Assembly: GCF_002224125.1 (NCBI RefSeq)
Contig: NZ_NCSM01000007.1
Span: 731,371 to 795,370 of the forward strand
Source: Streptomyces sp. NBS 14/10
GTDB taxonomy: Bacteria > Actinomycetota > Actinomycetes > Streptomycetales > Streptomycetaceae
Direction: 5' to 3'
Length of the DNA stretch: 64,000 nucleotides
Shown here one piece after another: positions 38,721 to 53,152 of the stretch; position 1 is the first letter of the stretch; every line of letters begins with the position of its first letter. A program made the translations under genes and the position numbers. The notes beneath the pieces are model-generated. The model searched no databases. It was not told the origin of the DNA and worked only from the letters and a program-made list of their open reading frames with translations.

Positions 38721-39979
38721 AGCTCGCAGTGGTGGGTGGCGGATCCACCTACACCCCCGAACTCGTCGACGGATTCGCCCGCTTGCGGGATGTGCTGCCG
38801 ATGGAGGAGCTGGTCCTGGTCGACCCGGCCGCCGACCGCCTGGAGCTGGTCGGCGGGCTGGCGCGGCGGATCTTCGCCAGGCAGGGCCACCCCGGCCGGA
38901 TCTCCTGGACGGATGACCTGGACGCGGGCGTGGACGGCGCGGACGCGGTTCTGCTGCAGCTGCGCGTCGGCGGGCAGGCCGCCCGCGACCAGGACGAGAC
39001 CTGGCCGCTGGAGTGCGGCTGCGTCGGGCAGGAGACCACCGGCGCGGGCGGGCTCGCCAAGGCCCTGCGCACGGTTCCGGTGGTGCTGGACATCGCCGAG
39101 CGGGTGCGCCGCCGCAATCCCGACGCGTGGATCGTGGACTTCACCAACCCGGTCGGCATCGTGACCCGAGCGCTGCTGACGGCGGGGCACCGGGCGGTCG
39201 GGCTGTGCAATGTCGCGATCGGCTTCCAGCGGAAGTTCGCGAAGCTGCTGGGCGTGGCCCCGGGCGAGGTGTCGCTCGACCATGTGGGCCTCAACCACCT
39301 CACCTGGGAGCGCGCGGTGCGGCTGGGCGGCCCGGGCGGCGAGGATGTGCTGCCCAAGCTGCTGGCCGAGCATGGCGACGCGATCGCCGACGATCTGCGG
39401 ATGCCGCGTGCGCTGATCGACCGTCTCGGCGTCGTCCCCTCGTACTATCTGCGCTACTTCTACCAGCACGACGCGGTCGTACGGGAGCTCGGGACGAAGC
39501 CGTCGCGGGCGGCCGAGGTCGCGGCGATCGAGCGGCGGCTGCTGGAGATGTACGCCGACCCGGCGCTGGACGAGAAGCCCGAGTTGCTGGGCAAGCGCGG
39601 CGGCGCCTTCTACTCGGAGGCGGCGGTCGACCTGACCTCGTCCCTGCTGCGGGACACTGGCGAGGTGCAAATCGTCAACACCTTCAACCGGGGCACGCTG
39701 CCCTTCCTCCCGGACGACGCGGTGATCGAGGTCCCCGCGGCCGTGGACGCGCGCGGCGCGAGCCCGCTGCCCGTCAGCCCTCTGGAACCCCTTTACGCGG
39801 GGCTGGTCGCCCATGTCACCGCGTATGAGGATCTGGCGCTGGAGGCGGCGTTGAAGGGCGGTCGGGAGCGGGTCTTCGACGCCTTGCTGGCCCATCCTCT
39901 GATCGGCCAGATCGAGTACGCCGAGAAGCTGACCGACACTCTCATCGCACACAACCGGGAGCACCTGGCGTGGGCCTGA
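38717..39979 (+). CDS. csnH: GH4-family NAD-dependent glycosidase
   Basis: GH4 hydrolase of 420 residues, using NAD+ and a divalent metal in an oxidation-elimination mechanism. It starts KLAVVGGGSTYTPELVDG, the NAD-binding loop. The metal-binding cysteine and histidine lie in GLCNVAIGF and DHVGLNHLTW. GH4 enzymes often act on 6-phosphoglycosides, but no phosphotransferase is present here, and in the csn context hydrolysis of imported glucosamine oligosaccharides is more likely. The TTG start has AGGAG seven bases upstream. It overlaps csnK by ten bases. Confidence 0.88.
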   Translation: MKLAVVGGGSTYTPELVDGFARLRDVLPMEELVLVDPAADRLELVGGLARRIFARQGHPGRISWTDDLDAGVDGADAVLLQLRVGGQAARDQDETWPLECGCVGQETTGAGGLAKALRTVPVVLDIAERVRRRNPDAWIVDFTNPVGIVTRALLTAGHRAVGLCNVAIGFQRKFAKLLGVAPGEVSLDHVGLNHLTWERAVRLGGPGGEDVLPKLLAEHGDAIADDLRMPRALIDRLGVVPSYYLRYFYQHDAVVRELGTKPSRAAEVAAIERRLLEMYADPALDEKPELLGKRGGAFYSEAAVDLTSSLLRDTGEVQIVNTFNRGTLPFLPDDAVIEVPAAVDARGASPLPVSPLEPLYAGLVAHVTAYEDLALEAALKGGRERVFDALLAHPLIGQIEYAEKLTDTLIAHNREHLAWA

Positions 39980-40995
39980 AGCAGTCCCAGAATGTGACCG
40001 CCCACCCGCCGCGCGCGTCCGTCCTTGCGGTCGACGCGGGCAACAGCAAGACCGATGTGGCGCTGGTCGGCCCGGACGGGGCGGTCCTCGGCACCGCGCG
40101 CGGCGGCGGCTTCCAGCCGCCCGTGGTGGGTGCCGAGGCCGCGGTGGCCTCGCTCGCCCCGCTGGTGGCGCGGGCGGCGCGGGCCGCCGGGTTCGACGGG
40201 CCGCCGTCCACCGAGCATGTCTCGGCCTGCCTGGCCAATGTGGATCTCCCGGCCGAGGAGGAGCAGGTGACGCCGCTGTTGGCGGCTCAGGGCTGGGGGT
40301 CGAGCGTCACGGTCGCCAATGACACCTTCGCGCTGCTGCGGGCCGGGGTCGCGGACGACGGCGAGCCGACCGGCGTCGCCGTGGTATGCGGCGCGGGCAT
40401 CAACTGCGCGGGGCTCGGCCATGGCGGCCGCACCGCGCGGTTCCCCGCGATCGGCCGGATCTCCGGTGACTGGGGCGGCGGCAGTGATCTGTCGCTGGAG
40501 GCGATGTGGTGGGCGGCGCGCGCGGAGGACGGCCGCGGCGCGCCGACGGCCCTGGCCCGTGCCCTGCCCGAGCACTTCGGCCTGGCCACCATGTACGAGC
40601 TGATCGAGGCGCTTCATCTGGGGCGGATCGCCCCGGCGCGGCGCCATGAGCTGACGCCGCTGCTCTTCGCGGTGGCCGGGTCGGGCGACGAGATCGCGCG
40701 CGCGATCGTCGCCCGGCAGGCGGAGGAGGTGGTCACCATGGCCACGGTCGCCTTGGCCCGGCTGGAACTGCTCGGTGAGCAGACGCCGGTGGTGCTCGGC
40801 GGCGGGGTGCTCGCGGCGCGCCATCCGCTCCTGGACGACCGGGTCCGCGAGTTGCTGGCCGAGCGCGCGCCGAAGGCGGAGCCGAGGGTGGTCACCGCGC
40901 CGCCGGTGCTGGGGGCCGCTCTGCTCGGTCTGGATCGGATGGGCGCGCCCGCGGCGGCGTACGCCGCGCTGCGCGCGCACTACGCCCGGGGCTGA
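39970..40995 (+). CDS. csnK: BadF/BadG-type sugar kinase (glucosamine/GlcNAc kinase)
   Basis: ATPase-fold sugar kinase of 341 residues in the BadF/BadG/BcrA family that includes N-acetylglucosamine kinase. The N-terminal phosphate loop reads LAVDAGNSKTDVALVG, followed by a second motif FALLRAGVADDG and the adenosine loop VVLGGGVLAARHP. It is the last gene of the csn operon and presumably phosphorylates the glucosamine released by csnH. In S. coelicolor the CsnK-type protein has been described as a glucosamine kinase. The GTG start overlaps the csnH stop by ten bases. Confidence 0.87.
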   Translation: MGLKQSQNVTAHPPRASVLAVDAGNSKTDVALVGPDGAVLGTARGGGFQPPVVGAEAAVASLAPLVARAARAAGFDGPPSTEHVSACLANVDLPAEEEQVTPLLAAQGWGSSVTVANDTFALLRAGVADDGEPTGVAVVCGAGINCAGLGHGGRTARFPAIGRISGDWGGGSDLSLEAMWWAARAEDGRGAPTALARALPEHFGLATMYELIEALHLGRIAPARRHELTPLLFAVAGSGDEIARAIVARQAEEVVTMATVALARLELLGEQTPVVLGGGVLAARHPLLDDRVRELLAERAPKAEPRVVTAPPVLGAALLGLDRMGAPAAAYAALRAHYARG

Positions 40996-41329
40996 TGATC
41001 CCCGCGCCCGGGGGCCGAAGCCCGCTGAGCCCGGGGCTGAGGGCCCCTGAGCCCGGGGCTGAGGGCCCCGATTTTCCAGGTCGGGGCGGGTAATTGGGAA
41101 CCGATGCGCGCCGAGAAGCGTATGAGAAGTTGGGAGAAGGAGGACGACGCGGACACCCCCGGGGCCGGTGGCCCAGAGGCGAAGATCGCGATCGGGCCAA
41201 GATCCGGGCACGACCGGTGTGCTCGTCGGCGGCTGGCGTCCATACTGCTGCCCGGATACCTGTCCCCCGCCGCATCGGGCGACGGGCCGCCGACAGTGAC
41301 TGAGGGGTCAGGACCGAGGGGGAGGTCAA
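40996..41329. other. Intergenic region before the PknG locus
   Basis: This is the 334-bp gap between csnK and glnX. Its first part holds a GC-rich 22-bp tandem repeat that may end the csn transcript. The rest must carry the promoter of the PknG locus, but no clear consensus or operator was seen. A short frame from 41104 has poor coding character. Confidence 0.4.
41025..41069 (+). repeat. 22-bp tandem repeat after csnK
   Basis: The word CTGAGCCCGGGGCTGAGGGC, extended by CCC, occurs twice, at 41025-41047 and 41047-41069. Each unit contains CCCGGG and GGGCCC palindromes and can fold on itself, so it may act as a terminator. Confidence 0.6.
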
Positions 41330-42772
41330 GTGGCATACCCGCCGACCACCGGCGCGGCCGGAGCTGCCGCCGCGGGCGCGTTGTCGGGGCGGCGGCGGGC
41401 CGCGTGGCGGGAGGGCGTCGATCGGGCCCGGGCCGCGGCGACGACGGAGCCGGGGCGGCTGCGGGTCATCGGGGCCGTGCTCGCGGCGCTGGTGGTGGCG
41501 TTCGGGGCGGTGACGGCCTGGCAGGTCTCCGACCGGCAGACCGCGGCGGACGCGGTGGTGGAGCACAGCCAGCCGCTGAGCGCCGACGCGGCGAGCATCT
41601 ACCGCTCGTTGGCCGACGCGGACACGACCGCGGCGAGCGCCTTCCTGGCCGGCGGGCAGGAGCCGACGGAGGTGCGCAGGCGGTACGAGGCGGATATCGA
41701 CCGGGCCGCCAAGCTGCTGGTGCGGGCCGCGGCCAATACGGAGGGCTCGGCGACCGCTCGCGAGGAGATACGCCGGATCGGCGAGCTCCTGCCGGTCTAT
41801 TCGGGCCTGGTCGAGTCCGCGCGGGCCAACAACCGTCAGGGGCTGCCGCTGGGCGGCGCCTATCTGCGGTATGCCAACGACGTCATGCGGCAGCGGCTGC
41901 TGCCCGCCGCGGGCCGGCTGTACCAGGCCGAGACCGCGCGGCTGGGCGAGGACTACGAGGAGGCGACGTCCTGGCCGTGGGCGGCGATCGGCCTCGGCGT
42001 CGCCGCGCTGGCCGCCCTGGGCTTGGCCCAGCGGCGTGACTTTCTGCGCACCAACCGGGTGTTCAACCGCGGGCTGCTCGCTGCTGCCGCCGCCTCGGCG
42101 GTGGTGCTGGTGTGGCTGGCGGTCGGCCATGGCCTCGCCCGCTCCGCGCTGAACGACTCCAATGACCACGGGGCGAAGTCCCTGCATGTGCTCAACGAGG
42201 CCCGGATCGACTCGCTGCGCGCCCGCGGCGACGAGAACCTGACGCTGGTGGCGCGCGGCGCGGTCGTCGTCGAAAAGGGCAAGGACAAGGGCAAGGACGC
42301 CTATGAGGTGGGCTACGCCGAGCAGATGTCCGGCCTGATAGGCGACGACGGCGCCGATGCCGGAAGCGTCGCCGGCGACGACAAGGCCGGGGCCGCCCCC
42401 GGCAGCCTGCTGGCCCGGGCGCGCGGCCTCGCGGACGACGACGAGGGCCGCGCCCCGGTGGACGAGGCCACCAAGCGCGTACGGGAGTGGCAGGTGCGCC
42501 ACAAGGCCGCCCGTGCCGACGACGACGCGGGCAACTACAAGGACGCGCGGGAGAAGGTCATCGGCGGTGAGGGCAGCACGGGCGAGTCGTTCGACAAGGT
42601 CGACGAGTTGCTGGCCAAGGCCCTGGACCATGAGCAGCGGGAGTTCAAGCGGGCGGCGGACGACGGGCGGGGCGCGCTGACCGGGCTGGCGCTCGGCGCC
42701 GGGGTGCTGGCCGCGCTGGGCGCGGCGGCCGCGCTGCTGGGCATAGGCCGCAGGCTGTCGGAGTACCGGTGA
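41330..42772 (+). CDS. glnX: GlnX-like four-helix membrane sensor
   Basis: Membrane protein of 480 residues with helices near 45-67, 215-236, 244-268 and 450-472. Two extracytoplasmic domains, about 68-214 and 269-449, are therefore exposed, each helical and charged. This matches the layout of mycobacterial GlnX, which works with GlnH and PknG to sense extracellular amino acids. There is no kinase or HAMP domain, so the signal must reach PknG through protein contact. The GTG at 41330 follows GGAGG closely. Its stop overlaps the glnH start by four bases (GTGA). Confidence 0.85.
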   Translation: MAYPPTTGAAGAAAAGALSGRRRAAWREGVDRARAAATTEPGRLRVIGAVLAALVVAFGAVTAWQVSDRQTAADAVVEHSQPLSADAASIYRSLADADTTAASAFLAGGQEPTEVRRRYEADIDRAAKLLVRAAANTEGSATAREEIRRIGELLPVYSGLVESARANNRQGLPLGGAYLRYANDVMRQRLLPAAGRLYQAETARLGEDYEEATSWPWAAIGLGVAALAALGLAQRRDFLRTNRVFNRGLLAAAAASAVVLVWLAVGHGLARSALNDSNDHGAKSLHVLNEARIDSLRARGDENLTLVARGAVVVEKGKDKGKDAYEVGYAEQMSGLIGDDGADAGSVAGDDKAGAAPGSLLARARGLADDDEGRAPVDEATKRVREWQVRHKAARADDDAGNYKDAREKVIGGEGSTGESFDKVDELLAKALDHEQREFKRAADDGRGALTGLALGAGVLAALGAAAALLGIGRRLSEYR

Positions 42773-43827
42773 GGGCGATGGGGGGCGTGAGGATGCGAGC
42801 GGGGCGAGCAGTGCGAGCGGGCGCCGCGGCGGCCGTCTGTGCCCTGGGCGTGGCCACGGCGATCTTCGTGCCCGCGGCGCTGGACGACCAGGGCGACGGC
42901 GGCGGGAGCGGGCGGGGCGAGGGAAGCGGGGTGCAGCCGCGGGCCGCGCGGACCACGGCGGCGACCACTGCGGAGAAGTGTGTGCGGCCGGAGGCCAGTC
43001 TGCGGCCGTCGAGCGCGAGCGGCCCGGCCATACAGCGCATCAAGAACCGGAAGGTCGACGGTCACCGGCTGGGCAAGCTGATCGCCGGGGTGGACCAGAA
43101 CAGCTACCGCTGGGGCTATCGCGACCCGGCCACCGGCGATCTCACGGGTTTCGACATCGAGCTGGTGCGCGCCATCGCCAAGGACATCTTCGGCGACCCT
43201 GACGCGGTCATCTACCGCGCCATCCCCACCAGTCAGCGGGTCAAGGCCCTGCAGCAGGGCAAGGTGGACATCGTCGTGCGCACCATGACCATCAACTGCG
43301 ACCGTCTCAAGGACGTCGCCTTCTCCACCGCCTACTTCAAGGCCGGACAGCAGGTGCTGGTTCCCAAGGGCTCCTCGGTGACCGGGTACAACTCCTCGCT
43401 GCGCGGCAAGAGGGTCTGTACGGCGCAGGGTTCCACCGCCGAGGCCGAGCTGGACAAGGAGAAGGACGGCGCCGAGGACCTGGGCGCGATCAAGGTCGAC
43501 CCGGTGCCCAATCAGCTGGACTGCCTGGTCAGATTGCAGCTCGGCCAGGTGGACGCCGTGATCACGGACAACGCGCTGGCGGCCGGGCAGGCGGCCCAGG
43601 ACCCGTCCGTCAAGCTCGTCGGCAAGCCGTTCACCGAGGAGTTCTACGGCGTGGCGATGAACAAGAGCGATGAGGACCTGGTACGCCGGGTCAACAAGGT
43701 GCTGGAGGCGTACCGCTCCGGCGGTGACAACAGCCCCTGGATGCGGGCCTACCGTAAGTGGCTCGCCGAAGATCTCGGCAGAACGGAGGAGAATCCGGCG
43801 GCACCGGCTCCCGCGTACAAGGACTAG
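42769..43827 (+). CDS. glnH: GlnH-like family-3 solute-binding protein
   Basis: Extracytoplasmic amino-acid-binding protein of 352 residues. It has one N-terminal hydrophobic helix (near 12-33), a disordered linker, then the SBP_bac_3 domain with DPATGDLTGFDIELVRAIAK and VDAVITDNALAA. Mycobacterial GlnH binds glutamate or aspartate and signals to PknG rather than feeding a transporter, and no ABC permease is next to this gene. Unlike the mycobacterial lipoprotein, no proper lipobox is seen, so it is probably anchored by its N-terminal helix. The start is uncertain (GTG 42769 or ATG 42793). Confidence 0.87.
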   Translation: MRAMGGVRMRAGRAVRAGAAAAVCALGVATAIFVPAALDDQGDGGGSGRGEGSGVQPRAARTTAATTAEKCVRPEASLRPSSASGPAIQRIKNRKVDGHRLGKLIAGVDQNSYRWGYRDPATGDLTGFDIELVRAIAKDIFGDPDAVIYRAIPTSQRVKALQQGKVDIVVRTMTINCDRLKDVAFSTAYFKAGQQVLVPKGSSVTGYNSSLRGKRVCTAQGSTAEAELDKEKDGAEDLGAIKVDPVPNQLDCLVRLQLGQVDAVITDNALAAGQAAQDPSVKLVGKPFTEEFYGVAMNKSDEDLVRRVNKVLEAYRSGGDNSPWMRAYRKWLAEDLGRTEENPAAPAPAYKD

Positions 43828-43977
43828 CGGCCAAGGACCAGCGGCCGAGGACCAGCAGCCGCCGAGGATTAGCGCGCGGCGAGCGCGCGTAGGGATGCAC
43901 GCAGTAAGTGCACGCAGTAGGGATGTAGCGAATACGGATCCAGTAGGTCACAGGGCACGGACACAGAGAGGTGATCG

Positions 43978-45300
43978 ATGGGGGGCACGGGACCCTTCCC
44001 CAGCTCCGCGGGGGAACCCGACAAGCCGGTCATGGGCCGCGAGGAGGTGGACCGCGTGCTGGCGAAGCTCGGAGCCGAACACGAGGCGATCGAGTCCTCG
44101 CTGCTCGCCCTCCAGGACCACGCGGGCCGCAGACTCCTGGAGGGCGCCGAGCTGACCGGCGTCACCAAGGACCGGTGGGCCACCACCGAGCAGGCCATCT
44201 CCCTGCTGTGGACGTATTTCGACGCCTATACGGACGCGCTGCACTCCGCCCGTGAGGTGCGCTCCCGCCACCGCTGGTCCACGCCCGGCGAGTTGGCCGA
44301 GCTCACCGGACTGCTGCGCGGCCCGGGCATCACGCTGCCCAGCAGCGCCTCGCTCACCGGCTCGCCGCTGCTCAGCGAGCAGCTGACGCTGGACGCGCTG
44401 GTCGTCCGGATGAACCGGTGGTACGCCGAGGCCCTTGATGTCATCGTCACGGCCGACGCCGTCTGGTCCGCGCTGCCCGCCCGTATCGACATGCTCTCCG
44501 CCGAGCTGCGCCGCACCCGTTCCCTCGCCCATTCGGTCGGGGTGCGCCCGGGCGAGCACCCCTCCGGTGACGACCTGGAGCGGATCACCGCGGAGCTGAC
44601 CTCGCTGCGCGCCGAGGTCGTCTCCGATCCGCTCGCCTTCTGGTCCGGCGCCTCGCCGAGCTCCGCGCCCGGCGGCGGCCGCCCCGACACCACCCGCTAC
44701 GACGCCGCGGCCCGCGCCCTGGAGGACGTACGGCGCGAGATCGAGGCGGTCCTCGATGTGCGGCAGGACGCGGAGCGGCGGCTGATGCGGCTGCGCGACG
44801 TCCTCTCCCGCGCGGACCGCACGCTCTCCGAGGCGCGGCAGGCGCGCGGTGAGGTGCTGGCCAAGATCGCGGCATCCGAGGTGCCGGCGGTCAGCGGCCC
44901 GCCGACGGTGCTGCAGGAGCAGCTGGTGACGGCGGCCGAGTACCGCAGGCGCGCCCAGTGGCACCGGCTCTCCCCGCTGCTGGAGTCCCTGGAGGAGCGC
45001 GCCGACGACGAGTTGCTGCGGGCCCGGGAGTCGCTGACCGCGGTGACCGCGCCGCTGGCGGTGCGCGCCGAGCTGCGCGGCCGGCTGGACGCGTACAAGG
45101 CGAAGGTCTCGCGCCATGGCATGGCCGAGGACCCGCTGCTGATCGAGCGGTACGACACGGCGCGCCGGATGCTGTGGAGCGCGCCCTGCGATCTGCGCGC
45201 CGCCGAAGCGGCGGTGCTGCGCTACCAGCATGCCGCGGCCGAGGCCCTGGTCCCGCGCCAGAAGGAGCCGCAGGACCGCAGAACAGGGGAGGCGCTGTGA
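43978..45300 (+). CDS. Helical/coiled-coil protein of the PknG locus
   Basis: A 440-residue protein with no recognised catalytic motif. It is rich in Glu, Arg, Ala and Leu, and long stretches (about 60-120, 180-230 and 250-420) are predicted helical with heptad-like spacing. It lacks a signal peptide and membrane helices, so it is cytoplasmic. It sits between glnH and pknG, and its stop overlaps the GTG of a 61-codon ORF that in turn overlaps pknG, so it is firmly in the operon. A role as adaptor between the GlnX/GlnH sensor and PknG is a reasonable inference, not shown. Confidence 0.8.
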   Translation: MGGTGPFPSSAGEPDKPVMGREEVDRVLAKLGAEHEAIESSLLALQDHAGRRLLEGAELTGVTKDRWATTEQAISLLWTYFDAYTDALHSAREVRSRHRWSTPGELAELTGLLRGPGITLPSSASLTGSPLLSEQLTLDALVVRMNRWYAEALDVIVTADAVWSALPARIDMLSAELRRTRSLAHSVGVRPGEHPSGDDLERITAELTSLRAEVVSDPLAFWSGASPSSAPGGGRPDTTRYDAAARALEDVRREIEAVLDVRQDAERRLMRLRDVLSRADRTLSEARQARGEVLAKIAASEVPAVSGPPTVLQEQLVTAAEYRRRAQWHRLSPLLESLEERADDELLRARESLTAVTAPLAVRAELRGRLDAYKAKVSRHGMAEDPLLIERYDTARRMLWSAPCDLRAAEAAVLRYQHAAAEALVPRQKEPQDRRTGEAL

Positions 45301-45482
45301 GCGTCGCACGCGCGGCCGCCGGGCCGCACACGACCGCGATTCGCCTGCTGTCGCCGCGCGGGCGGAGAAGCGAACCAAAAAGCACCGTGAGCGTCGCACG
45401 CGCGGCCGCCGGGCCGCACACGGGCGCGATGGCCGCACCTCTGCGCCGCGCGGGCGGAGAAGCGAACGGAGAAGCGCCGTGA
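45297..45482 (+). CDS. 61-codon ORF made of a tandem repeat, coupled to pknG
   Basis: This frame starts with GTG overlapping the previous stop (GTGA, 45297-45300) and ends with TGA overlapping the pknG GTG (45479-45482). It encodes 61 residues in which SVARAAAGPHT appears twice. At the DNA level a 36-bp word is repeated exactly at 45297-45332 and 45387-45422. A second word recurs at 45352-45375 and 45444-45467. A third partial copy (GTGAGCGTCGC) forms the pknG start itself. It could be a real small protein, a coupling device, or a dispersed intergenic repeat that landed in frame. Confidence 0.5.
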   Translation: MSVARAAAGPHTTAIRLLSPRGRRSEPKSTVSVARAAAGPHTGAMAAPLRRAGGEANGEAP

Positions 45483-47980
45483 GCGTCGCGGGTATGGGCA
45501 GGTGTCAGCGGCGTGGGTGCGGCGGGGCGTACGAGGACGTGGGCGGCGGTCAGCTGTACTGCGATACGTGCGGTATGGCCCCGGTCGTCTCGCGGGACGG
45601 AATGGTCGGCTCGTCGCCCACCGGTATCACCGGCGTGGGGCGCGGCGACCGCGGTAGCGGCTCGTCGGGCACCGGCTCCCGTTCCTCCTCGCGCCCGTCG
45701 TCGCGGTCCGCCTCGTCCCGGCGTTCGGTGTCCGGGCGGCTGTCCCGTTCGCTGGGGTCGGGGCGGTCGTCCTCGCGTTCGGTGTCGGTGCGCAGCTCCC
45801 GCTCCTCCGCCGTGGCCCGCTCCGGGCGCGGCCGCCTGGGCGCGGGCCTGGTCAGCGTGGACGAGGTGCCGCGCACCGACCCGCGGATGGCGGTGCTGGC
45901 CAATCCGGAGGTGCCGGAGCGCAAGCGGTTCTGCAGCCGGAGCGACTGCGGGGCGCCGGTGGGGCGTGCCCGCGGCGATCGGCCGGGCCGCACCGAGGGG
46001 TTCTGCACCAAGTGCGGCCATCCGTATTCCTTCGTGCCCAAACTGAGCCCTGGCGATATCGTGCACGGCCAGTACGAGGTGGCGGGGTGTCTGGCCCACG
46101 GCGGTCTCGGCTGGATCTATCTGGCCATCGACCGGGCGGTGTCCGACCGCTGGGTGGTCCTCAAGGGCCTGCTGGACACGGGCGACGAGGAGGCGCTGTC
46201 GGTCGCGGTGTCGGAGCGCCGGTTCCTCGCCGAGATCGAGCATTCCAACATCGTCCGCATCTACAACTTCGTCGAGCATCTCGATCAGCGCACCGGCAGC
46301 CTCGACGGCTACATCGTGATGGAGTACGTCGGCGGCAAGTCGCTGAAGGACATCGCCAACTCCCGCCGCGCGCCGGACGGCAGGCGCGATCCGCTGCCGG
46401 TCGAGCAGGCGTGTGCGTACGGTATCGAGGCCCTGGAGGCCCTGGGCCATCTGCACAGCCGCAATCTGCTCTACTGCGACTTCAAGGTCGACAACGCCAT
46501 CCAGCAGCAGGACCAGCTGAAGCTCATCGACATGGGCGCGGTGCGGCGGATGGACGACGAGGACAGCCCGATCTACGGCACGGTCGGCTATCAGGCCCCC
46601 GAGGTCTCGGAGCTGGGGCCGACAATCGCCTCGGATCTGTATACGGTGGCGCGCACGCTGGCCGTGCTCACCTTCGACTTCCAGGGTTATACGAACGTCT
46701 TCGCGGACAGCCTGCCCGACCCGGGGAACATCGAGGTCTTCCAGCGTTACGAGTCGTTCTACCGGCTGCTGGTGCGGGCCACCGACCCCGATCCGAACCG
46801 CCGGTTCGGCTCGGCGCAGGAGATGGCCGATCAGCTGACGGGTGTGTTGCGGGAGGTCGTGGCGCTGCAGACGGGGCGGCCCCGGCCGGCGCTGTCGACG
46901 CTGTTCGGGCCCGAGCCGCGGGTGGTGGACACCCAGTTGTTCGCCGAGCAGGGGCAGGACGCTTCGGCGCTCGGGGCCCGCGCCGGCCGGGGCCGGGCGG
47001 CCGCCGCTCCGCCCCGCCCCCAGGGCGTGCTCGCCCTGCCGCTGCCCGCGATCGCGCCGCTGGACGCCCGCGCCACCGCCTTGGCGCTGCCGGTGCCGCT
47101 GGTGGATCCGGACGACGCCAACGCCGGGTTTCTCGCCGGGCTGCTGGCCTCCGCCCCGACCGAGCTGCACGCGGCGCTGCGGGCGGCCCCCGCCGACTCG
47201 CTGGAGCTGCGGCTGCGCCGTATCCGCGCGCAGTTGGAGCTGGGCCACGCCCGGGAGGCGGGGATCGCGCTGGACGGTCTGGAGGCCGGCCATCCCGACG
47301 ACTGGCGGATCGTCTGGTGCCGGGGCCTGCACGCGCTGGCGACCGGGGACAACGAGACCGCGGCCCTGTCCTTCGACGCCGTCTACGACGCGTTCCCCGG
47401 CGAGCCCGCGCCGAAGCTGGCGCTGGGTGTGTGCGCCGAAGTGCTCGGCCAGTTGGACAATGCGGCGGAGTACTACCGGCTGGTGTGGACGACCGACCCG
47501 AACCATGTGAGCGCCGCCTTCGGGCTCGCCCGGGTGCTGTTGTACGCCGGGGACCGCGCGGGGGCGGTGGCCGCTCTCGAGTCCGTACCGGAGTCGTCCA
47601 TTCACTACACGGCGGCCCGGGTCGCGGCGGTGCGGGCCCGGCTGCGGCAGCGCGCCGCGCATGAGCCGCTGCTGGCCGATCTGACGGCCTCGGCCCAACA
47701 GGTCGAGCTGCTGGGCCACTTGGGTCTGGACGCGGTGCGGTACGAGCGGCTGTGCACGGAAGTACTGGGCAGCGCCCTGGATTGGGTACTGTCCGGCAGC
47801 AGCGGCGCGCCGCCGGGCGGCGCCCGGCCGTCCCTGCTCAGCAGCAGTCTGGACGAGCGGGGACTGCGCTTCGGCTTGGAACGCTCGTACCGGGTGCTCG
47901 CCAGGCTTGCGCAGCGCGGCGAGGAAAGGATCGAACTGGTGGAGCGGGCCAACCGTTTCCGCCCCAGGACGTGGGTGTGA
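45479..47980 (+). CDS. pknG: Serine/threonine protein kinase PknG with extra zinc ribbon
   Basis: Soluble Ser/Thr kinase of 833 residues matching mycobacterial PknG in order. An N-terminal zinc ribbon (Cys9, 14, 28 and 31) is extra. A Ser/Arg-rich linker follows, then the rubredoxin-like site (Cys152, 157, 176 and 179). The kinase domain has glycine loop AHGGLGWIYLA, Lys229, catalytic Asp334 in YCDFKVDN, and DMG with Asp351 (mycobacterial PknG has DLG). A TPR domain fills about 545-770. PknG controls nitrogen and TCA flux through FHA-domain targets. The start GTG has GGAG seven bases upstream and overlaps the repeat ORF. PP2C follows by 3 bp. Confidence 0.93.
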   Translation: MSVAGMGRCQRRGCGGAYEDVGGGQLYCDTCGMAPVVSRDGMVGSSPTGITGVGRGDRGSGSSGTGSRSSSRPSSRSASSRRSVSGRLSRSLGSGRSSSRSVSVRSSRSSAVARSGRGRLGAGLVSVDEVPRTDPRMAVLANPEVPERKRFCSRSDCGAPVGRARGDRPGRTEGFCTKCGHPYSFVPKLSPGDIVHGQYEVAGCLAHGGLGWIYLAIDRAVSDRWVVLKGLLDTGDEEALSVAVSERRFLAEIEHSNIVRIYNFVEHLDQRTGSLDGYIVMEYVGGKSLKDIANSRRAPDGRRDPLPVEQACAYGIEALEALGHLHSRNLLYCDFKVDNAIQQQDQLKLIDMGAVRRMDDEDSPIYGTVGYQAPEVSELGPTIASDLYTVARTLAVLTFDFQGYTNVFADSLPDPGNIEVFQRYESFYRLLVRATDPDPNRRFGSAQEMADQLTGVLREVVALQTGRPRPALSTLFGPEPRVVDTQLFAEQGQDASALGARAGRGRAAAAPPRPQGVLALPLPAIAPLDARATALALPVPLVDPDDANAGFLAGLLASAPTELHAALRAAPADSLELRLRRIRAQLELGHAREAGIALDGLEAGHPDDWRIVWCRGLHALATGDNETAALSFDAVYDAFPGEPAPKLALGVCAEVLGQLDNAAEYYRLVWTTDPNHVSAAFGLARVLLYAGDRAGAVAALESVPESSIHYTAARVAAVRARLRQRAAHEPLLADLTASAQQVELLGHLGLDAVRYERLCTEVLGSALDWVLSGSSGAPPGGARPSLLSSSLDERGLRFGLERSYRVLARLAQRGEERIELVERANRFRPRTWV

Positions 47981-47983
47981 TCG

Positions 47984-49378
47984 ATGTCGCAGATGCCGCG
48001 GCTGCCGGGAGTGGCAGCCTGCCCGACCTGTGAAGAGCCGCTGGAGTCGGGTGACAACTTCTGCGGCGTGTGCGGGGCCGATCTGGCGTCGGCCGCGCCG
48101 GATGCCGCCGATGCCGCCGTGGCCGCGGACCGGCCGGCGCCTCCGGTGAACGGAGCGGCGCGGGCCAGGCGGCAGGAGCCGGAGGACTATCCGCTCCCGG
48201 CCCCCGCCCCGGCGCCTCCGGCCGCCGCAGCGGGCCCGGCGGGCCCGGATGTCCCGGCGGCCTCGGATATCCCGGTCGCCTGGGACGTACCGGACGCGCC
48301 GGACGCACCGGATGTGCCGGACGGGCCAGGCGCGCCGACGACCGACCCCAGGGCCGCGGCTCCTGGGGAGCAACCAACCCCCGATACGCCTGCCGCACCG
48401 GGTACGCCGGGCACGCCGGGCATCGGACCGAACACTGACGCGAGCAGCGGCCGCCGCCTGTGCGCCGCGTGCCGGGAGGGCACCATCGACCAGGACGGAT
48501 ACTGCGACTCCTGTGGCCACGCCCAGCCACGGGACCGCGACCACATGGAGCGGGAGTTGGCGGGCGTCGCGGCGGCCAGCGACCGCGGTCTGCGCCACCA
48601 TCGCAACGAGGACGCGTTCGCCGTGTCCTCCGCCGCGCTGCCCGACGGTTCACCGGCCGTGCTCGCGGTCGTCTGCGACGGAGTCTCCTCGGCGACCCGC
48701 CCCGACGACGCGTCCGCGGCCGCCGCCCGCGCCGCGGGCCAGTCGCTGCTCGCCGCGCTCCCCCGTGGCGCCCATCCCCAGACGGCCATGAACGAGGCGA
48801 TCGTCGCCGCCTCCGAGGCCGTGAACTCCCTCGCGGCGGAGGCGGGCGGGGCGGGTGCGCACGACGAGGCCCACCAGCGCCAGCAGAACGCGCCGGCCTG
48901 CACCATCGTCAGCGCGGTGGTCACCTCCGGCATCCTGACCGTCGGCTGGATCGGCGACAGCCGCGCCTACTGGGTGCCCGACGACCGTTCGGCGTCGCCC
49001 GCCCGGCTCACCGAGGACGACTCGTGGGCGGCCCAGATGGTGGCGGCCGGTCTGATGTCCGAGGCGGAGGCGTACGCGGACGAGCGGGCCCACGCCATCA
49101 CCGGCTGGCTCGGCGCGGACGCCTATGAACTGGAGCCGCACACCGCGTCCTACAAGCCGGACCAGCCGGGTGTGGTGGTGGTGTGCACCGACGGCCTGTG
49201 GAACTACGCGGAATCGGCGCAGGACATGGCCCGCGCGCTGCCGCAGGACGCCCGCGCCCGGCCGATGCACAGCGCGCGCGTTCTGGTCGGCCACGCCCTG
49301 GAGGGCGGGGGCCACGACAACGTAACAGTGGCCGTACTGCCGTTCCCCGCGGAGCCCGGCGGGGCAGGCTCCGGCTGA
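47984..49378 (+). CDS. PP2C-type phosphatase with two zinc ribbons
   Basis: Ser/Thr phosphatase of 464 residues and the likely partner that reverses PknG phosphorylation. An N-terminal zinc ribbon (CPTC and CGVCG, about residues 13-32) is followed by a Pro/Ala linker and a second ribbon (CAAC and CDSCG, about 160-178). The PP2C catalytic domain has SDRGLRHHRNEDAF, VVCDGVSS, GWIGDSRAYWV, CTDGLWNY and GHDNVTVAV, carrying the metal-binding aspartates. There is no membrane segment. It begins 3 bp after pknG, so co-expression is certain. Confidence 0.9.
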   Translation: MSQMPRLPGVAACPTCEEPLESGDNFCGVCGADLASAAPDAADAAVAADRPAPPVNGAARARRQEPEDYPLPAPAPAPPAAAAGPAGPDVPAASDIPVAWDVPDAPDAPDVPDGPGAPTTDPRAAAPGEQPTPDTPAAPGTPGTPGIGPNTDASSGRRLCAACREGTIDQDGYCDSCGHAQPRDRDHMERELAGVAAASDRGLRHHRNEDAFAVSSAALPDGSPAVLAVVCDGVSSATRPDDASAAAARAAGQSLLAALPRGAHPQTAMNEAIVAASEAVNSLAAEAGGAGAHDEAHQRQQNAPACTIVSAVVTSGILTVGWIGDSRAYWVPDDRSASPARLTEDDSWAAQMVAAGLMSEAEAYADERAHAITGWLGADAYELEPHTASYKPDQPGVVVVCTDGLWNYAESAQDMARALPQDARARPMHSARVLVGHALEGGGHDNVTVAVLPFPAEPGGAGSG

Positions 49379-49433
49379 TCTCCGGACGGCCGGTCTGAGC
49401 CCAGGAGCGATTGAAGCCCAAGGAGCGGATCTG

Positions 49434-50867
49434 ATGGCCAACTTCGCCAAGTCCACCGTGCCGCGGTTCTCGGTCGAGGTCTACCAGAACGAGTACCTTC
49501 CCGAGGGCGGCCGCGAGGTGAACGCGATCGTCACGGTCACGTCCACCGGCGGCGGCACCACCGGGGGGATGCCCATCCCGGCGGCCCCTGCGACCCCGGC
49601 GCCCGCCGACCCCCGGGACCTGGGCGGCGCCCAGCCCCGGGACCAGAGCGGCGCGCCGCCCGGGGACCAGAGCGGCGGCGCGGCCGTGGTCATCATGGTC
49701 GACTGCTCCGGCTCCATGGACTATCCGCCGGAGAAGATGCGCAACGCGCGGGACGCGACCGCCGCCGCGATCGACGCCATCCGCGACGGCGTCGCCTTCG
49801 CGGTGGTCGCCGGCACGCACAAGGCGGAGGAGATCTTCCCGGGCGGGGGCCGGCTGGCGACCGCCGACCCGGTCACCCGGGCCCGGGCGAAGGACGCGCT
49901 GCGCGGGCTGAGCGCCGACGGCGGCACGGCGATCGGCACCTGGCTGCGCCTCGCCGACCGGCTGCTGGCGTCGGCCGACGCACCGATCCGGCACGGCATC
50001 CTGCTGACCGACGGCCGCAACGAGCACGAGGAGCCGGGCGAGCTGCGGGCCGCGCTGGACGCCTGCGCGGGCCGCTTCACCTGCGACGCACGCGGGGTGG
50101 GCACGGACTGGGAGGTCAAGGAGGTCACCGGCATCGCCTCCGCGCTGCTCGGCACGGCCGATATCGTGGCGGACCCCTCCCATCTGGCCGCGGACTTCAC
50201 GCGCATGATGGACGCCGCGATGGGCAAGGAGATCGCGGACGTGAGCCTGCGGGTGTGGACCCCGGTGGGCGCCGAGGTGGCGTTCGTCAAGCAGGTGGCG
50301 CCCGCGGTCGAGGACCTGACCGACCGGCGTGCCGAGGCCGGGGCGCGGGCCGGCGACTATCCGACGGGCTCCTGGGGCGACGAGTCCCGCGACTACCACC
50401 TGTGTGTGCGGGTGCCCGCGGCCGGCGTCGGGCAGGAGATGCTGGCCGCCCGCGTCTCTCTCGTACTGCCGCAACACGACCCGGGGCACGACCCGCGGCA
50501 CGCCGCGCTCCCGGCCACGCTCGCCCAGGGGTTGGTGCGGGCCGTGTGGACGGAGGACATGGCCGCCTCCACCGCGATGAATCCGCAGGTCGCGCACTAT
50601 ACGGGCCAGGCGGAACTGGCACAGGCCATCCAACAGGGCCTGGATGCCCGCAAAGCGGGCGATACGGACGGAGCAACGGCCAAGCTGGGGCGTGCCGTCC
50701 AGCTGGCGAACGCCTCGGGGAACGAGGACACGGCGAAACTGCTTGCGAAGGTGGTGGACGTCGTCGATGTGGCGACAGGTACTGTGCGACTGAAAGCGAA
50801 GGTCGCGGAAGCGGATGAGATGACTCTCGAAACGCGCTCCACCAAGACAGTTCGCGTCAAAAGGTAA
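49434..50867 (+). CDS. VWA-domain protein of the PknG locus
   Basis: Cytoplasmic protein of 477 residues with a von Willebrand A domain and an intact MIDAS metal site: DCSGS starting at Asp90, Thr165 in GGTAIG and Asp193 in LLTDGRN. An N-terminal beta-rich segment and a Pro/Gly insert (residues 40-80) precede it. The C-terminal 200 residues form a beta-rich region and an alanine-rich helical tail with TPR-like spacing. VWA proteins paired with kinases and PP2C phosphatases occur in Ter-type stress modules, where they act as metal-dependent scaffolds. It lies 55 bp after the phosphatase. Confidence 0.88.
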   Translation: MANFAKSTVPRFSVEVYQNEYLPEGGREVNAIVTVTSTGGGTTGGMPIPAAPATPAPADPRDLGGAQPRDQSGAPPGDQSGGAAVVIMVDCSGSMDYPPEKMRNARDATAAAIDAIRDGVAFAVVAGTHKAEEIFPGGGRLATADPVTRARAKDALRGLSADGGTAIGTWLRLADRLLASADAPIRHGILLTDGRNEHEEPGELRAALDACAGRFTCDARGVGTDWEVKEVTGIASALLGTADIVADPSHLAADFTRMMDAAMGKEIADVSLRVWTPVGAEVAFVKQVAPAVEDLTDRRAEAGARAGDYPTGSWGDESRDYHLCVRVPAAGVGQEMLAARVSLVLPQHDPGHDPRHAALPATLAQGLVRAVWTEDMAASTAMNPQVAHYTGQAELAQAIQQGLDARKAGDTDGATAKLGRAVQLANASGNEDTAKLLAKVVDVVDVATGTVRLKAKVAEADEMTLETRSTKTVRVKR

Positions 50868-50938
50868 CAAGAAGTAACGCGACAAGCACGCAAAACGGCA
50901 GTAAGCGCCGAGAACGGCACAAGAGGGGGAACACCGAC

Positions 50939-52252
50939 ATGCCGACCTGCCCTAACGGCCACCAATCAGCGGCCGACGACTGGTGCGAGGTGTGTGGCCA
51001 CCGGATGTCGGGGACGCCCATGCCCACGGGCGCCGTCCCCCCGCCTCCGCCACCGCCGATGCCCGGCCCGCCCGGGTTCCCGGGAAGCGCTCCGGGCCCC
51101 GCGGGCCCGGGAGGTCCCGGCGCCCCGGACGGCATGGGCTTCCCCGGCGGGTCGCCACCGCCGGGCGCCCCGGGACCCCAGGGCCCGCCCGGGGGCTACG
51201 GCTATCCGGCGCCCGCCCCGCAGCCGCCGGACGCCCAGGGACAGGGATTCCAGGGTCCGCCCGGGGGCTACGGCTACCCGGCGCCCGCCCCGCAGCCGCC
51301 GGACCCCACCTTCCAGGCGGAGCTGTGCCCTCAGTGCCGTACGCCCCGTGAGGCGCAGGCACCGTTCTGCGAGGAGTGCCGCTACAACTTCCTGACCCAG
51401 TCACCCACCTCGTACGCCCCGCCGCCCCCGCCCGGGTCCGGCGGCTTCCAGCCGCCGCACCCCCCGCAGCCGCAGCCGTTCCCGCCGCAGGGTCCCCACG
51501 GGGGTCCGGGCCCGGGCGGCTACCCGGCGGGCCCGCCGCAGCCGGGTCACCCGAGCCCGGGCGAGCCGCTGCTGCCCTCGCCGCCGATGCAGCAGCCTCC
51601 GGGCCCGTCCTTCAGCGAGGACGACTGGACGCTGCAGCCGCCGAACGCCGCGGGGCCCGCCGCGCCGCCGAACGCTCCCGCGCCCCCGTCGCCGTACGGG
51701 CAGCCGCAGCCGCCCCAGGCCCCGGCCCCGCCCGGCCCCGGCTTCGGCGGCGACTACCCGGGCGCCCCGGCGCCCGGACCGCACCAAGGGCCGCCCGCCC
51801 ACTTCACCCAGGGCAGCCCTCCGGCTCCTCCCGCAGCCGCGGCCCCCGCGGGGTGGGTCGCGTTCGTCGGCCCGGACCGTGAGTACTTCATGGCGATGAT
51901 GCACCGCAGCGGCCCGGAGGCGGCCGGTCTGAACCTCCCGGCCTACTCCCCCGAGCAGCAGCTCCCGCTCACCGGGCCGCAGATCACCATCGGCCGCCGC
52001 CGCCACAGCACCGGCGAGTCGCCCGATATCGACCTGGCGCGCCAGCCGGAGGACCCCGGGGTCTCCCACCAGCACGCGGTCCTCGTCCAGCAGCCGGACG
52101 GCGGCTGGGCGGTCGTCGACCAGGACTCGACGAACGGCACCACGATCAACGGCGGAGAGGACCCGATCCAGCCGTACGTCCCGATCCCCCTCCAGGACGG
52201 CGACCGCGTCCACGTCGGGGCCTGGACGACGATCACCGTACGCCGGGGATAG
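50939..52252 (+). CDS. Zinc-ribbon, proline-rich FHA-domain protein
   Basis: A 437-residue cytoplasmic protein. An N-terminal zinc ribbon (CPNGH and CEVCG) is followed by Pro/Gly linkers with a tandem 24-residue repeat, a second ribbon (CPQC and CEEC), a long Pro-rich region to about residue 300, and a C-terminal FHA domain (ITIGRRR; SHQHAVL; STNGTTING). FHA domains read phosphothreonine, so it is the natural reader of PknG or sister-kinase output. The ATG at 50939 follows AGAGGGGG. It is the last gene of the locus, closed by a strong hairpin at 52292-52340. Confidence 0.9.
   Translation: MPTCPNGHQSAADDWCEVCGHRMSGTPMPTGAVPPPPPPPMPGPPGFPGSAPGPAGPGGPGAPDGMGFPGGSPPPGAPGPQGPPGGYGYPAPAPQPPDAQGQGFQGPPGGYGYPAPAPQPPDPTFQAELCPQCRTPREAQAPFCEECRYNFLTQSPTSYAPPPPPGSGGFQPPHPPQPQPFPPQGPHGGPGPGGYPAGPPQPGHPSPGEPLLPSPPMQQPPGPSFSEDDWTLQPPNAAGPAAPPNAPAPPSPYGQPQPPQAPAPPGPGFGGDYPGAPAPGPHQGPPAHFTQGSPPAPPAAAAPAGWVAFVGPDREYFMAMMHRSGPEAAGLNLPAYSPEQQLPLTGPQITIGRRRHSTGESPDIDLARQPEDPGVSHQHAVLVQQPDGGWAVVDQDSTNGTTINGGEDPIQPYVPIPLQDGDRVHVGAWTTITVRRG
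51185..51304 (+). repeat. 72-bp tandem repeat inside FHA-protein gene
   Basis: The DNA at 51185-51232 recurs at 51257-51304 with very few changes, period 72 bp. It encodes the repeated word GGYGYPAPAPQPPD in the proline-rich linker. In-frame slippage can change linker length between strains. Confidence 0.75.
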
Positions 52253-52291
52253 GGCCGAGGACGGCATTCTCCCGGTATGACGCGGCACAGC

Positions 52292-52340
52292 CCGGTGGCG
52301 GGCGGCCGGCCGACTTCTTCGGCCGATAGCCCGCCACCGG
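52292..52340 (+). terminator. Terminator of the PknG locus
   Basis: CCGGTGGCGGGC (52292-52303) pairs perfectly with 52329-52340, and an inner GGCCGA-type stem extends it. It lies 39 bp after the FHA gene stop. Confidence 0.85.
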
Positions 52341-52405
52341 AGGCGCACCCTGCGTAGATTCCGGGCGGAACATCCGCTCACCGAGATGCGTGGAGGGTGT
52401 AAGTA

Positions 52406-53152
52406 ATGCCAGTGCTCAAAGGCAAGACCGCGGTCGTCACCGGAGGCTCGCGGGGCATCGGCCGGGCCATCGTGGAGCGGCTGGCCCGCGACGGCGCCGA
52501 GGTGGTGTTCAATTACGCGCGCAGCGCCGAGGCCGCCGAGGAGATCGTCCGCGCCGTCGAGGAAGCGGGCGGCAGCGCCCGCGCGGTGCGGCTGGACCTG
52601 TCCGAGCCCGGGGCGGCGGAGCAGTTGATGGAGACCGCGTCGCAGGGGCCGTCCGGCGGCGTGGAGATCCTGGTCAACAACGCGGCCGTGAACCTCCCGA
52701 GGGCCCGTCTCGCCGAGATCGAGGAGGAGGACTTCGATCATCTGCTGTCGGTCAATCTGAAGGCCGCCTTCCTGACCGTGCGGTACGCGGCGCGGCATAT
52801 GCCCGACGGCGGGCGGATCATCAACATCTCCACGCTGAACACCGTCCGGGCCGTGCCGGGCGTCGCCCCGTACATGATCAGCAAGGGAGCGCTGGAACAG
52901 CTCACCGCGGCGGCCGCGCAGGAGCTGGGGGAGCGCGGCATCACCGTCAACACGGTCTCCCCGGGGGCGACCGACACCGACATGCTGCACGCCGCGAACC
53001 CCGGCGACGTGCTGGACCTGATCGTCAGCATCACCCCGCTCCGCCGGCTCGGGCAGCCGTCCGACGTGGCCGACGTCGTGGCGTTTCTGGCGGGCCCGGA
53101 CGGCCGCTGGCTCACCGGCCAGAACCTCCGAGCCTCGGGCGGCCTCAGCTGA
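52406..53152 (+). CDS. SDR-family NAD(P)-dependent oxidoreductase
   Basis: Short-chain dehydrogenase of 248 residues. It has the cofactor motif TGGSRGIGRA near residue 10, the NNAAVN structural motif, and the catalytic pair in YMISK (Tyr-X3-Lys) preceded by the serine of NISTLNTV. The family is FabG-like, but the substrate is unknown. An ATG at 52406 with GGAGGG ten bases upstream sets the start. It is monocistronic after the PknG terminator and converges on the methyltransferase gene. Confidence 0.88.
   Translation: MPVLKGKTAVVTGGSRGIGRAIVERLARDGAEVVFNYARSAEAAEEIVRAVEEAGGSARAVRLDLSEPGAAEQLMETASQGPSGGVEILVNNAAVNLPRARLAEIEEEDFDHLLSVNLKAAFLTVRYAARHMPDGGRIINISTLNTVRAVPGVAPYMISKGALEQLTAAAAQELGERGITVNTVSPGATDTDMLHAANPGDVLDLIVSITPLRRLGQPSDVADVVAFLAGPDGRWLTGQNLRASGGLS

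Follow-up and report, generated by a model that had tools for sequence, protein, structure and literature searches.

A seven-gene signalling cassette around PknG in Streptomyces, of which the mycobacterial glnX-glnH-pknG operon looks like a reduced form

A 64,000-nucleotide (nt) stretch of the Streptomyces sp. NBS 14/10 genome (contig NZ_NCSM01000007.1, positions 731,371 to 795,370; hereafter the window) carries seven plus-strand genes at 41330..52252: glnX, glnH, a gene for a helical protein that we call HEL, pknG, and genes for a PP2C phosphatase, a VWA protein and an FHA protein. An earlier note had proposed an extended PknG signalling locus here, and open reading frame (ORF) and family scans bear it out. 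The locus is real, and in it a known signalling operon is extended in a conserved way; what its parts may do together we infer from protein families and gene linkage.

The first gene, glnX (41330..42772, +), encodes a GlnX-family signal-transduction membrane protein that scores 492.7 bits against NCBIfam NF058618 (cut-off 250) and falls below the cut-off of the narrower equivalog NF041460 (200.8 < 780). It overlaps by 4 nt with glnH (42769..43827, +), which encodes a family-3 amino-acid-binding protein (SBP_bac_3; PF00497, 90.2 bits) whose closest solved structure is M. tuberculosis GlnH (6h1u, E 2.3e-55). After a 150-nt gap follows HEL (43978..45300, +), all-helical with a conserved C-terminal region, which we propose as a PknG adaptor. 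The product of pknG (45479..47980, +) comprises an N-terminal zinc ribbon with conserved cysteines, a rubredoxin domain, a kinase domain and TPRs (PF16919, PF00069, PF16918); its match to the M. tuberculosis PknG structure 2pzi has E 2e-164. A PP2C phosphatase with zinc ribbons (47984..49378, +; PF13672) is encoded 3 nt further on. Wider gaps of 55 and 71 nt precede, respectively, the VWA protein (49434..50867, +; PF13768, PF18571), with a DxSxS metal-ion-dependent adhesion site (MIDAS) motif and a VWA_3_C domain, and the FHA protein (50939..52252, +; PF00498, 55.6 bits), in which zinc ribbons and a Pro/Gly-rich linker lead to a C-terminal FHA domain.

The motifs of these proteins are intact: the window proteins keep the catalytic or binding motifs of the kinase, the phosphatase, the VWA MIDAS and the FHA domain. 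The 2pzi alignment places the catalytic kinase Lys, Asp and Asp in VVLKG, YCDFKVDN and IDMGAV. The PP2C motifs NED, GDSR, TDGLW and DN, like the FHA motifs GR, SxxHA and NG, are kept in 25/25 sequences above 50 bits from the family labelled f1 in our survey. At least 90% of 71 Streptomyces-type sequences retain the DCSGSM of the VWA protein, and 24 of 29 f1 VWA ORFs above 50 bits, second copies counted, show the strict MIDAS pattern. To call the VWA protein a scaffold, as the earlier note did, is a guess.

HEL appears to represent a newly seen protein family. Pfam, NCBIfam and PADLOC yield no match above cut-off, and its AlphaFold model (predicted local distance difference test score 85.5, predicted template-modelling score 0.67) is made up of long helices with no PDB match at E <= 0.001 in a fold search. 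Two sequence-profile matches, one of them to a lectin chain at E 0.00035, look like chance coiled-coil matches and were set aside. Homologues number 2638 at E <= 0.001 among 7996 candidates, and the 120 listed are Streptomyces where named. Between HEL and pknG the earlier note had placed a 61-codon ORF (45297..45481, +) as a further cassette member. We reject it as a gene: it consists of two copies of a repeat unit of about 90 nt, a lineage-specific tandem duplication of the HEL-pknG junction (spanning 45292-45489) that preserves the stop/start overlaps. Among the 80 relatives described below and five other loci it recurs as a single partial copy (L006); a 29-nt match elsewhere is chance-like. 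The pknG start is best taken as the GTG at 45479 in preference to 45230. The HEL stop lies within 6 nt of the aligned pknG start, or overlaps it, in 40 of 59 Streptomyces-type relatives measured.

The arrangement is strongly conserved in Streptomyces. Among the best 80 of 514 confirmed relatives of the PknG query (78 named Streptomyces, two bearing other genus names), all seven genes lie on the pknG strand in 61 of the 61 loci longer than 21 kb, so that the absence or unlinking of the extra genes in other Streptomyces, which the earlier note had held out as a refutation, was not found. A script returned the identical gene order in 60 of these loci; in the exception, L071, it had picked an FHA match internal to PP2C, and an FHA-protein match at 15355 does follow VWA. 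The spacing of pknG and PP2C is 2-4 nt in 46/46 relatives measured. PknG had no match in one same-genus genome of the later class sample (G277).

Across the class, the PknG TPR family PF16918 occurs in 101 of 296 genomes, 99 above cut-off (14 in a first sample of 60). Stretches from 97 of the 101 gave 130 loci, leaving out the window copy itself, G169 (contig end) and G110 and G204 (below cut-off), and were scanned with profiles built for this analysis at a threshold of 25 bits, lowered to 12 for the C-terminal region of HEL. We then took one best pknG locus for each of the 97 genomes and excluded 16 with short flanks (f18 8, f4 3, f1 2, f17 2, f27 1). We take f4 as the mycobacterial family because its three-gene layout matches those of Tsukamurella (L089) and N. 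farcinica (L087), and f17 as Streptosporangiaceae because one of its loci, L144, groups with the Nonomuraea locus L086 (support 100); f18 is presumably Frankiaceae.

Outside the mycobacterial family, 51 of the 61 usable loci have all six pknG partners, against 0/20 inside it (f1 24/24, f17 9/15, f18 10/13, f26 6/6, f11 1/1, f42 1/1, f46 0/1, f4 0/20). Singly, the 61 outside loci hold GlnX in 60, GlnH in 59, HEL in 55, PP2C in 57, VWA in 56 and FHA in 57, while the 20 f4 loci all hold GlnX and GlnH; in these 20, which have enough flank, the same profiles find HEL, PP2C, VWA and FHA in none, on either strand. Among the full loci are a few weak calls (L131 VWA, 30 bits and partial; L170 HEL, 48; L179 HEL, 44, and FHA, 49) and one cassette with broken reading frames (L236). 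Among the incomplete f17 loci, HEL goes undetected in three and VWA is missing from two, while in L142 GlnX and GlnH are the sole partners. HEL directly precedes PknG in 53/53 full loci. The order GlnX-GlnH-HEL-PknG-PP2C-VWA-FHA is found in 43 of the 53, from six families (f1, f11, f18, f26, f42 and L188 of f4), and a rotated order, HEL-PknG-PP2C-VWA-FHA-GlnX-GlnH, in the other 10 (f17 9, Nonomuraea 1). Of the eight-gene linkage across pknG neighbourhoods that the earlier note had suggested checking, seven genes hold together, the eighth (the 61-codon ORF) does not, and the mycobacterial family, with L188 as the one exception, lacks the extra genes. A search for a further family-spanning gene beside the seven yielded clusters resembling alternative frames of the cassette and an ABC-transporter-like ORF at about 18.5 kb in L123, none individually checked, so that a further member is possible. 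On a Nocardia plasmid (L088:6063-10076) a lone pknG sits beside an amino-acid permease gene, with an NAD-glutamate dehydrogenase nearby.

The zinc ribbon at the N-terminus of PknG seems to go with the cassette. It is found in 0/24 three-gene f4 loci and in 46 of the 53 loci with all six partners, L188 included (f1 23/24, f17 7/9, f18 9/10, f26 4/6, f11 0/1, f42 1/1, Nonomuraea 1/1, L188 1/1); two bare f4 loci and two f46 loci are also without it. An earlier, differently worded pattern, covering families other than f18, gave 6/6 in f26, 1/1 in f11, 21/23 in f1 and 6/9 in f17. The ribbon is also present in incomplete loci such as L142. GarA shows a parallel pattern. The window's own genome encodes an unlinked GarA homologue (L241:1474-2307, -) with an N-terminal zinc ribbon, an ETTS motif and an FHA domain, at 193.8 bits just below the model cut-off of 200, and homologues were found in 34/34 genomes tested. 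In the 31 GarA sequences read (30 loci plus our own genome; four genomes yielded no locus), the ribbon is present in 20/20 outside f4 and f46, 0/10 in f4 and 0/1 in f46. A Thr-Gln motif, which we take to be the GarA-recruiting segment of tuberculosis PknG, occurs in 19 of the 24 three-gene f4 PknG N-termini. Recruitment of GarA by tuberculosis PknG is described in PMC6069109.

PknG trees bear on whether the extra genes were lost or gained. The reduced f4 loci form one group in both trees, and their sister (support 99) is L188, a full cassette; with such a sister, the three-gene operon of the mycobacterial loci looks reduced. L188 (L188:391-9008) comes, if the assembly is uncontaminated, from the f4 genome G282, which also holds a three-gene copy (L194). 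The second tree was rooted with HEL-PknG-VWA copies as outgroup, on a long branch, and the root is uncertain. In it the f4 loci nest among full cassettes, with support 88 at the forks above them, and loss is therefore favoured. On a tree of 96 rows the fewest changes required are 7 for VWA, 5 for PP2C, 7 for FHA, 9 for HEL and 4 for GlnX.

Second PknG modules add a further dimension. The window's own genome has a second PknG (42% identity to that of the window) on contig C38 (L005:7213-15333), where a trypsin-like/HEL fusion, PknG, a VWA protein with a zinc ribbon, a GlnX-like protein (67 bits, short of the 250-bit cut-off) and a family-1 solute-binding protein follow one another. HEL lies behind a trypsin-like domain in such Streptomyces second copies, assigned by Pfam for L005 and by a look at the sequence for L127 and L128. 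The order HEL-PknG-VWA, then a GlnX-like protein and a family-1 binding protein, recurs in L126 (f18; GlnX-like 111 bits) and L185 (f46; GlnX-like 33 bits, in-house profile). In L233 (f1), PknG-VWA is followed by an ORF without a family match and then a family-1 binding protein; in L151 (f17) no such protein was found in the single downstream ORF scanned. From the gene order in four loci, the solute-binding sensor appears exchangeable. By eye, the HEL C-terminal region is seen in the ORF 5' of PknG in L120, L121, L123, L125-L128 and L005, and not in that of L122. HEL and VWA are both present in 8 of the 33 second copies, VWA in 10, and the full set of six partners in none. In 12 f18 second copies GlnH or GlnH-GlnX lies on the opposite strand and no partner on the kinase's own. 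In L122, L166, L168, L171, L175 and similar copies this is an opposite-strand GlnH-GlnX pair, with HEL, PP2C, VWA and FHA not detected.

The binding site of GlnH differs from that of its mycobacterial counterpart. In M. tuberculosis GlnH the side-chain contacts that predict Asp or Glu as ligand are Arg147, Thr162 and Trp232 (PMC6069109). Window GlnH keeps Arg147, Thr162, Arg169 and Asp250, has Thr for Ser164 and has Gln for Trp232, so that the full contact set is not found in it; the set marks the ligand, not the pathway. At the Trp232 position f1 loci carry Gln in 23/24 and His in 1/24, f4 Trp in 24/24, f46 Trp in 1/1 and one f17 locus Tyr; the pattern was unreadable in 24 other loci, and the reading covered families other than f18. 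The ligand of window GlnH should not be presumed to be Asp or Glu.

Upstream, a GGAACC-N16-CGTA motif (41097..41122, +) lies 233 nt 5' of the glnX start; from its form we take it to be an extracytoplasmic function (ECF) sigma-type promoter, with sigma-E as one possible factor. Of 72 Streptomyces loci, 42, the window included, carry the strict motif in the 650 bp before glnX, with a spacer of 16 nt in 42/42 and a mostly variable spacer sequence; it is absent there from the other 30, one of which has a near match. In all, the loci hold 55 strict sites in 3.07 Mb, both strands counted, and a looser pattern is found in 44 of 74 upstream regions vs 29 of 1480 pieces drawn from them at random. The motif lies upstream of the module in 17/33 f1 loci, and in 0/99 loci of other families or second-type copies. 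Downstream, the strong terminator that the earlier note saw only after the last gene is in part confirmed: there is a strong hairpin (52292..52340, +; -48.3 kcal/mol, z -5.1, 0/200 shuffles as stable), but it has no T-run, and a consensus terminator scan of the plus strand over 40800-52800 found no terminator-like site. A BadF-family ATPase gene lies 5' of glnX at 39970-40995, and a gene of this family precedes glnX in 67 of the 80 relatives.

Several known systems share parts of this arrangement. The closest is the glnX-glnH-pknG operon with GarA/OdhI (PMC6069109, PMC8546545), in which GlnX, GlnH and PknG stand in the same order and which has its GarA homologue in our genome as well; the cassette adds HEL, PP2C, VWA and FHA, carries N-terminal zinc ribbons on PknG and GarA, and has Gln for Trp232 of GlnH. 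That operon is called 'widely conserved' (PMC6069109, Fig. 2B, from STRING), and the figure may show some of the neighbours described here. The TerY-P triad (PMC11090510) likewise has adjacent genes for a VWA protein, a PP2C phosphatase and a Ser/Thr kinase and involves zinc ribbons, whereas the kinase of the cassette is PknG, with C-terminal TPRs and its zinc ribbon at the N-terminus, the sensor is an amino-acid sensor pair and the VWA protein has no PADLOC match. The third theme of the actinobacterial GAP1-N2 systems (PMC7159879) links a kinase with a zinc ribbon, PP2C and a standalone vWA, as the cassette does; the cassette differs in its amino-acid sensor and in having no GTPase or FNIII family among its seven proteins, to which the scan was confined. 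Membership of a known defence family was considered and rejected, PADLOC yielding just kinase-domain matches for PknG and one weak PP2C match. SCO2662-2669 is the presumed S. coelicolor counterpart. SCO2666, possibly the gene in question, has been named as a kinase phosphorylated on solid medium (PMC9600765). The S. coelicolor cluster SCO4775-4779 also groups Streptomyces Ser/Thr kinase genes, but we reject it as this locus; its five kinase genes are transcribed separately, and the main text of the paper on it mentions neither PknG nor FHA (PMC4416010). PMC1262709, as far as available, mentions PknG once, and its VWA passage is about Pseudomonas PpkA. In searches of the open PMC literature we found no description of PknG linked to VWA, PP2C and FHA genes. 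New here are HEL, the zinc ribbons of PknG and GarA that track the cassette, the second modules with a family-1 binder and the conserved ECF-type promoter before glnX.

Taken together, these observations make it probable, in our judgement, that the seven genes form one conserved signalling cassette built on PknG, of which the mycobacterial operon is a reduced form. Outside the membrane, GlnH would bind an amino acid and GlnX would relay the signal inward; amino-acid sensing by GlnH and GlnX has already been proposed for mycobacteria and Corynebacterium (PMC6069109, PMC8546545). HEL, encoded directly before PknG and often with overlapping stop and start, would be the likely adaptor joining the membrane input to the TPR end of PknG. 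PknG would phosphorylate GarA, the unlinked regulator of the tricarboxylic acid cycle, and would probably work with the cassette's own FHA protein, with PP2C as a dedicated eraser and VWA as a metal-dependent assembly factor. PknG, GarA, PP2C and the FHA protein of the cassette all carry zinc ribbons, which may serve them as a shared docking feature. In mycobacteria, HEL, PP2C, VWA and FHA would have been lost, together with the ribbons on PknG and GarA. A bolder version is possible, and we hold it tentatively: the PknG machinery started out as the full cassette, with the mycobacterial operon as its stripped-down descendant, HEL couples interchangeable family-3 and family-1 binders through GlnX-type proteins to PknG and VWA, and a Thr-based docking mode replaced the ribbons of PknG and GarA when these were lost with the cassette.

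Several observations weigh against a PknG cassette that was reduced in mycobacteria. Some f17 loci lack VWA, HEL or, in the case of L142, all four extras with the zinc ribbon on PknG retained, and in 25 of the 33 second copies HEL or VWA is not detected. The VWA protein of L188 fails the strict MIDAS pattern. The correlation of the zinc ribbons with the cassette is suggestive only, because it possibly reflects one or two evolutionary events, and the Thr-Gln motif also occurs in six loci outside f4 (two full and two bare f18 loci and two second-copy f1/f1b loci). As a Gln stands in place of the Trp that contacts the Asp or Glu side chain, the ligand of Streptomyces GlnH may differ. The tree itself holds a contrary signal: the three-gene f46 locus L136 branches off first when the tree is rooted with the outgroup (support 88), which, with the long outgroup branch and uncertain root, allows for a gain of the extra genes. 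A three-gene ancestor that gained HEL, PP2C, VWA and FHA once, early and outside the mycobacterial lineage nevertheless seems to us rather unlikely, given that L188 is sister to the mycobacterial loci and that the outgroup modules themselves contain HEL and VWA.

It is also conceivable, though we think it improbable, that the working unit is glnX-glnH-pknG only, for PknG-GarA control of 2-oxoglutarate dehydrogenase, and that PP2C, VWA and FHA belong to a neighbouring system that shares the operon through use in the same growth phase. The ETTS-motif GarA homologue elsewhere in our own genome, and those of the 34 genomes tested, mean that the classic pathway could operate in the absence of the extra genes, and the wider PP2C-VWA and VWA-FHA gaps fit such a division. 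Against it stands linkage across many families, including the rearranged yet complete f17 set, and the second copies with partners, which keep HEL and VWA rather than PP2C. The idea that a TerY-P-like stress or anti-phage triad captured a PknG-type kinase and an amino-acid sensor draws on the side-by-side VWA, PP2C and kinase genes, on the kinase-PP2C-vWA sets of actinobacterial GAP1-N2 systems (PMC7159879) and on the trypsin-like domain on HEL in the second module. We regard it as very unlikely: the kinase has the TPR and rubredoxin domains of PknG and neither a C-terminal zinc ribbon nor an OB fold, VWA, FHA and HEL have no PADLOC match at E 0.01 and the kinase matches are to kinase-domain models, and presence in 61/61 long Streptomyces loci is unlike a patchy defence island. 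Nor do we favour a Ter-type set added onto a mycobacterial core, the direction the earlier note had implied, because outside the mycobacterial family 51 of 61 PknG loci hold all the extras, which are therefore better read as what such loci normally carry.

PknG has so far been studied mostly in the mycobacterial family, with its three-gene operon. For the route from GlnX to PknG and for the set of partners the cassette supplies candidates, with HEL as the possible missing link, PP2C as a dedicated eraser and the VWA and FHA proteins as partners. Under the suggested rooting of the tree, docking as seen in mycobacteria would be derived. Moreover, the second modules suggest that PknG may belong to a broader sensing platform in which the binding proteins can be exchanged.

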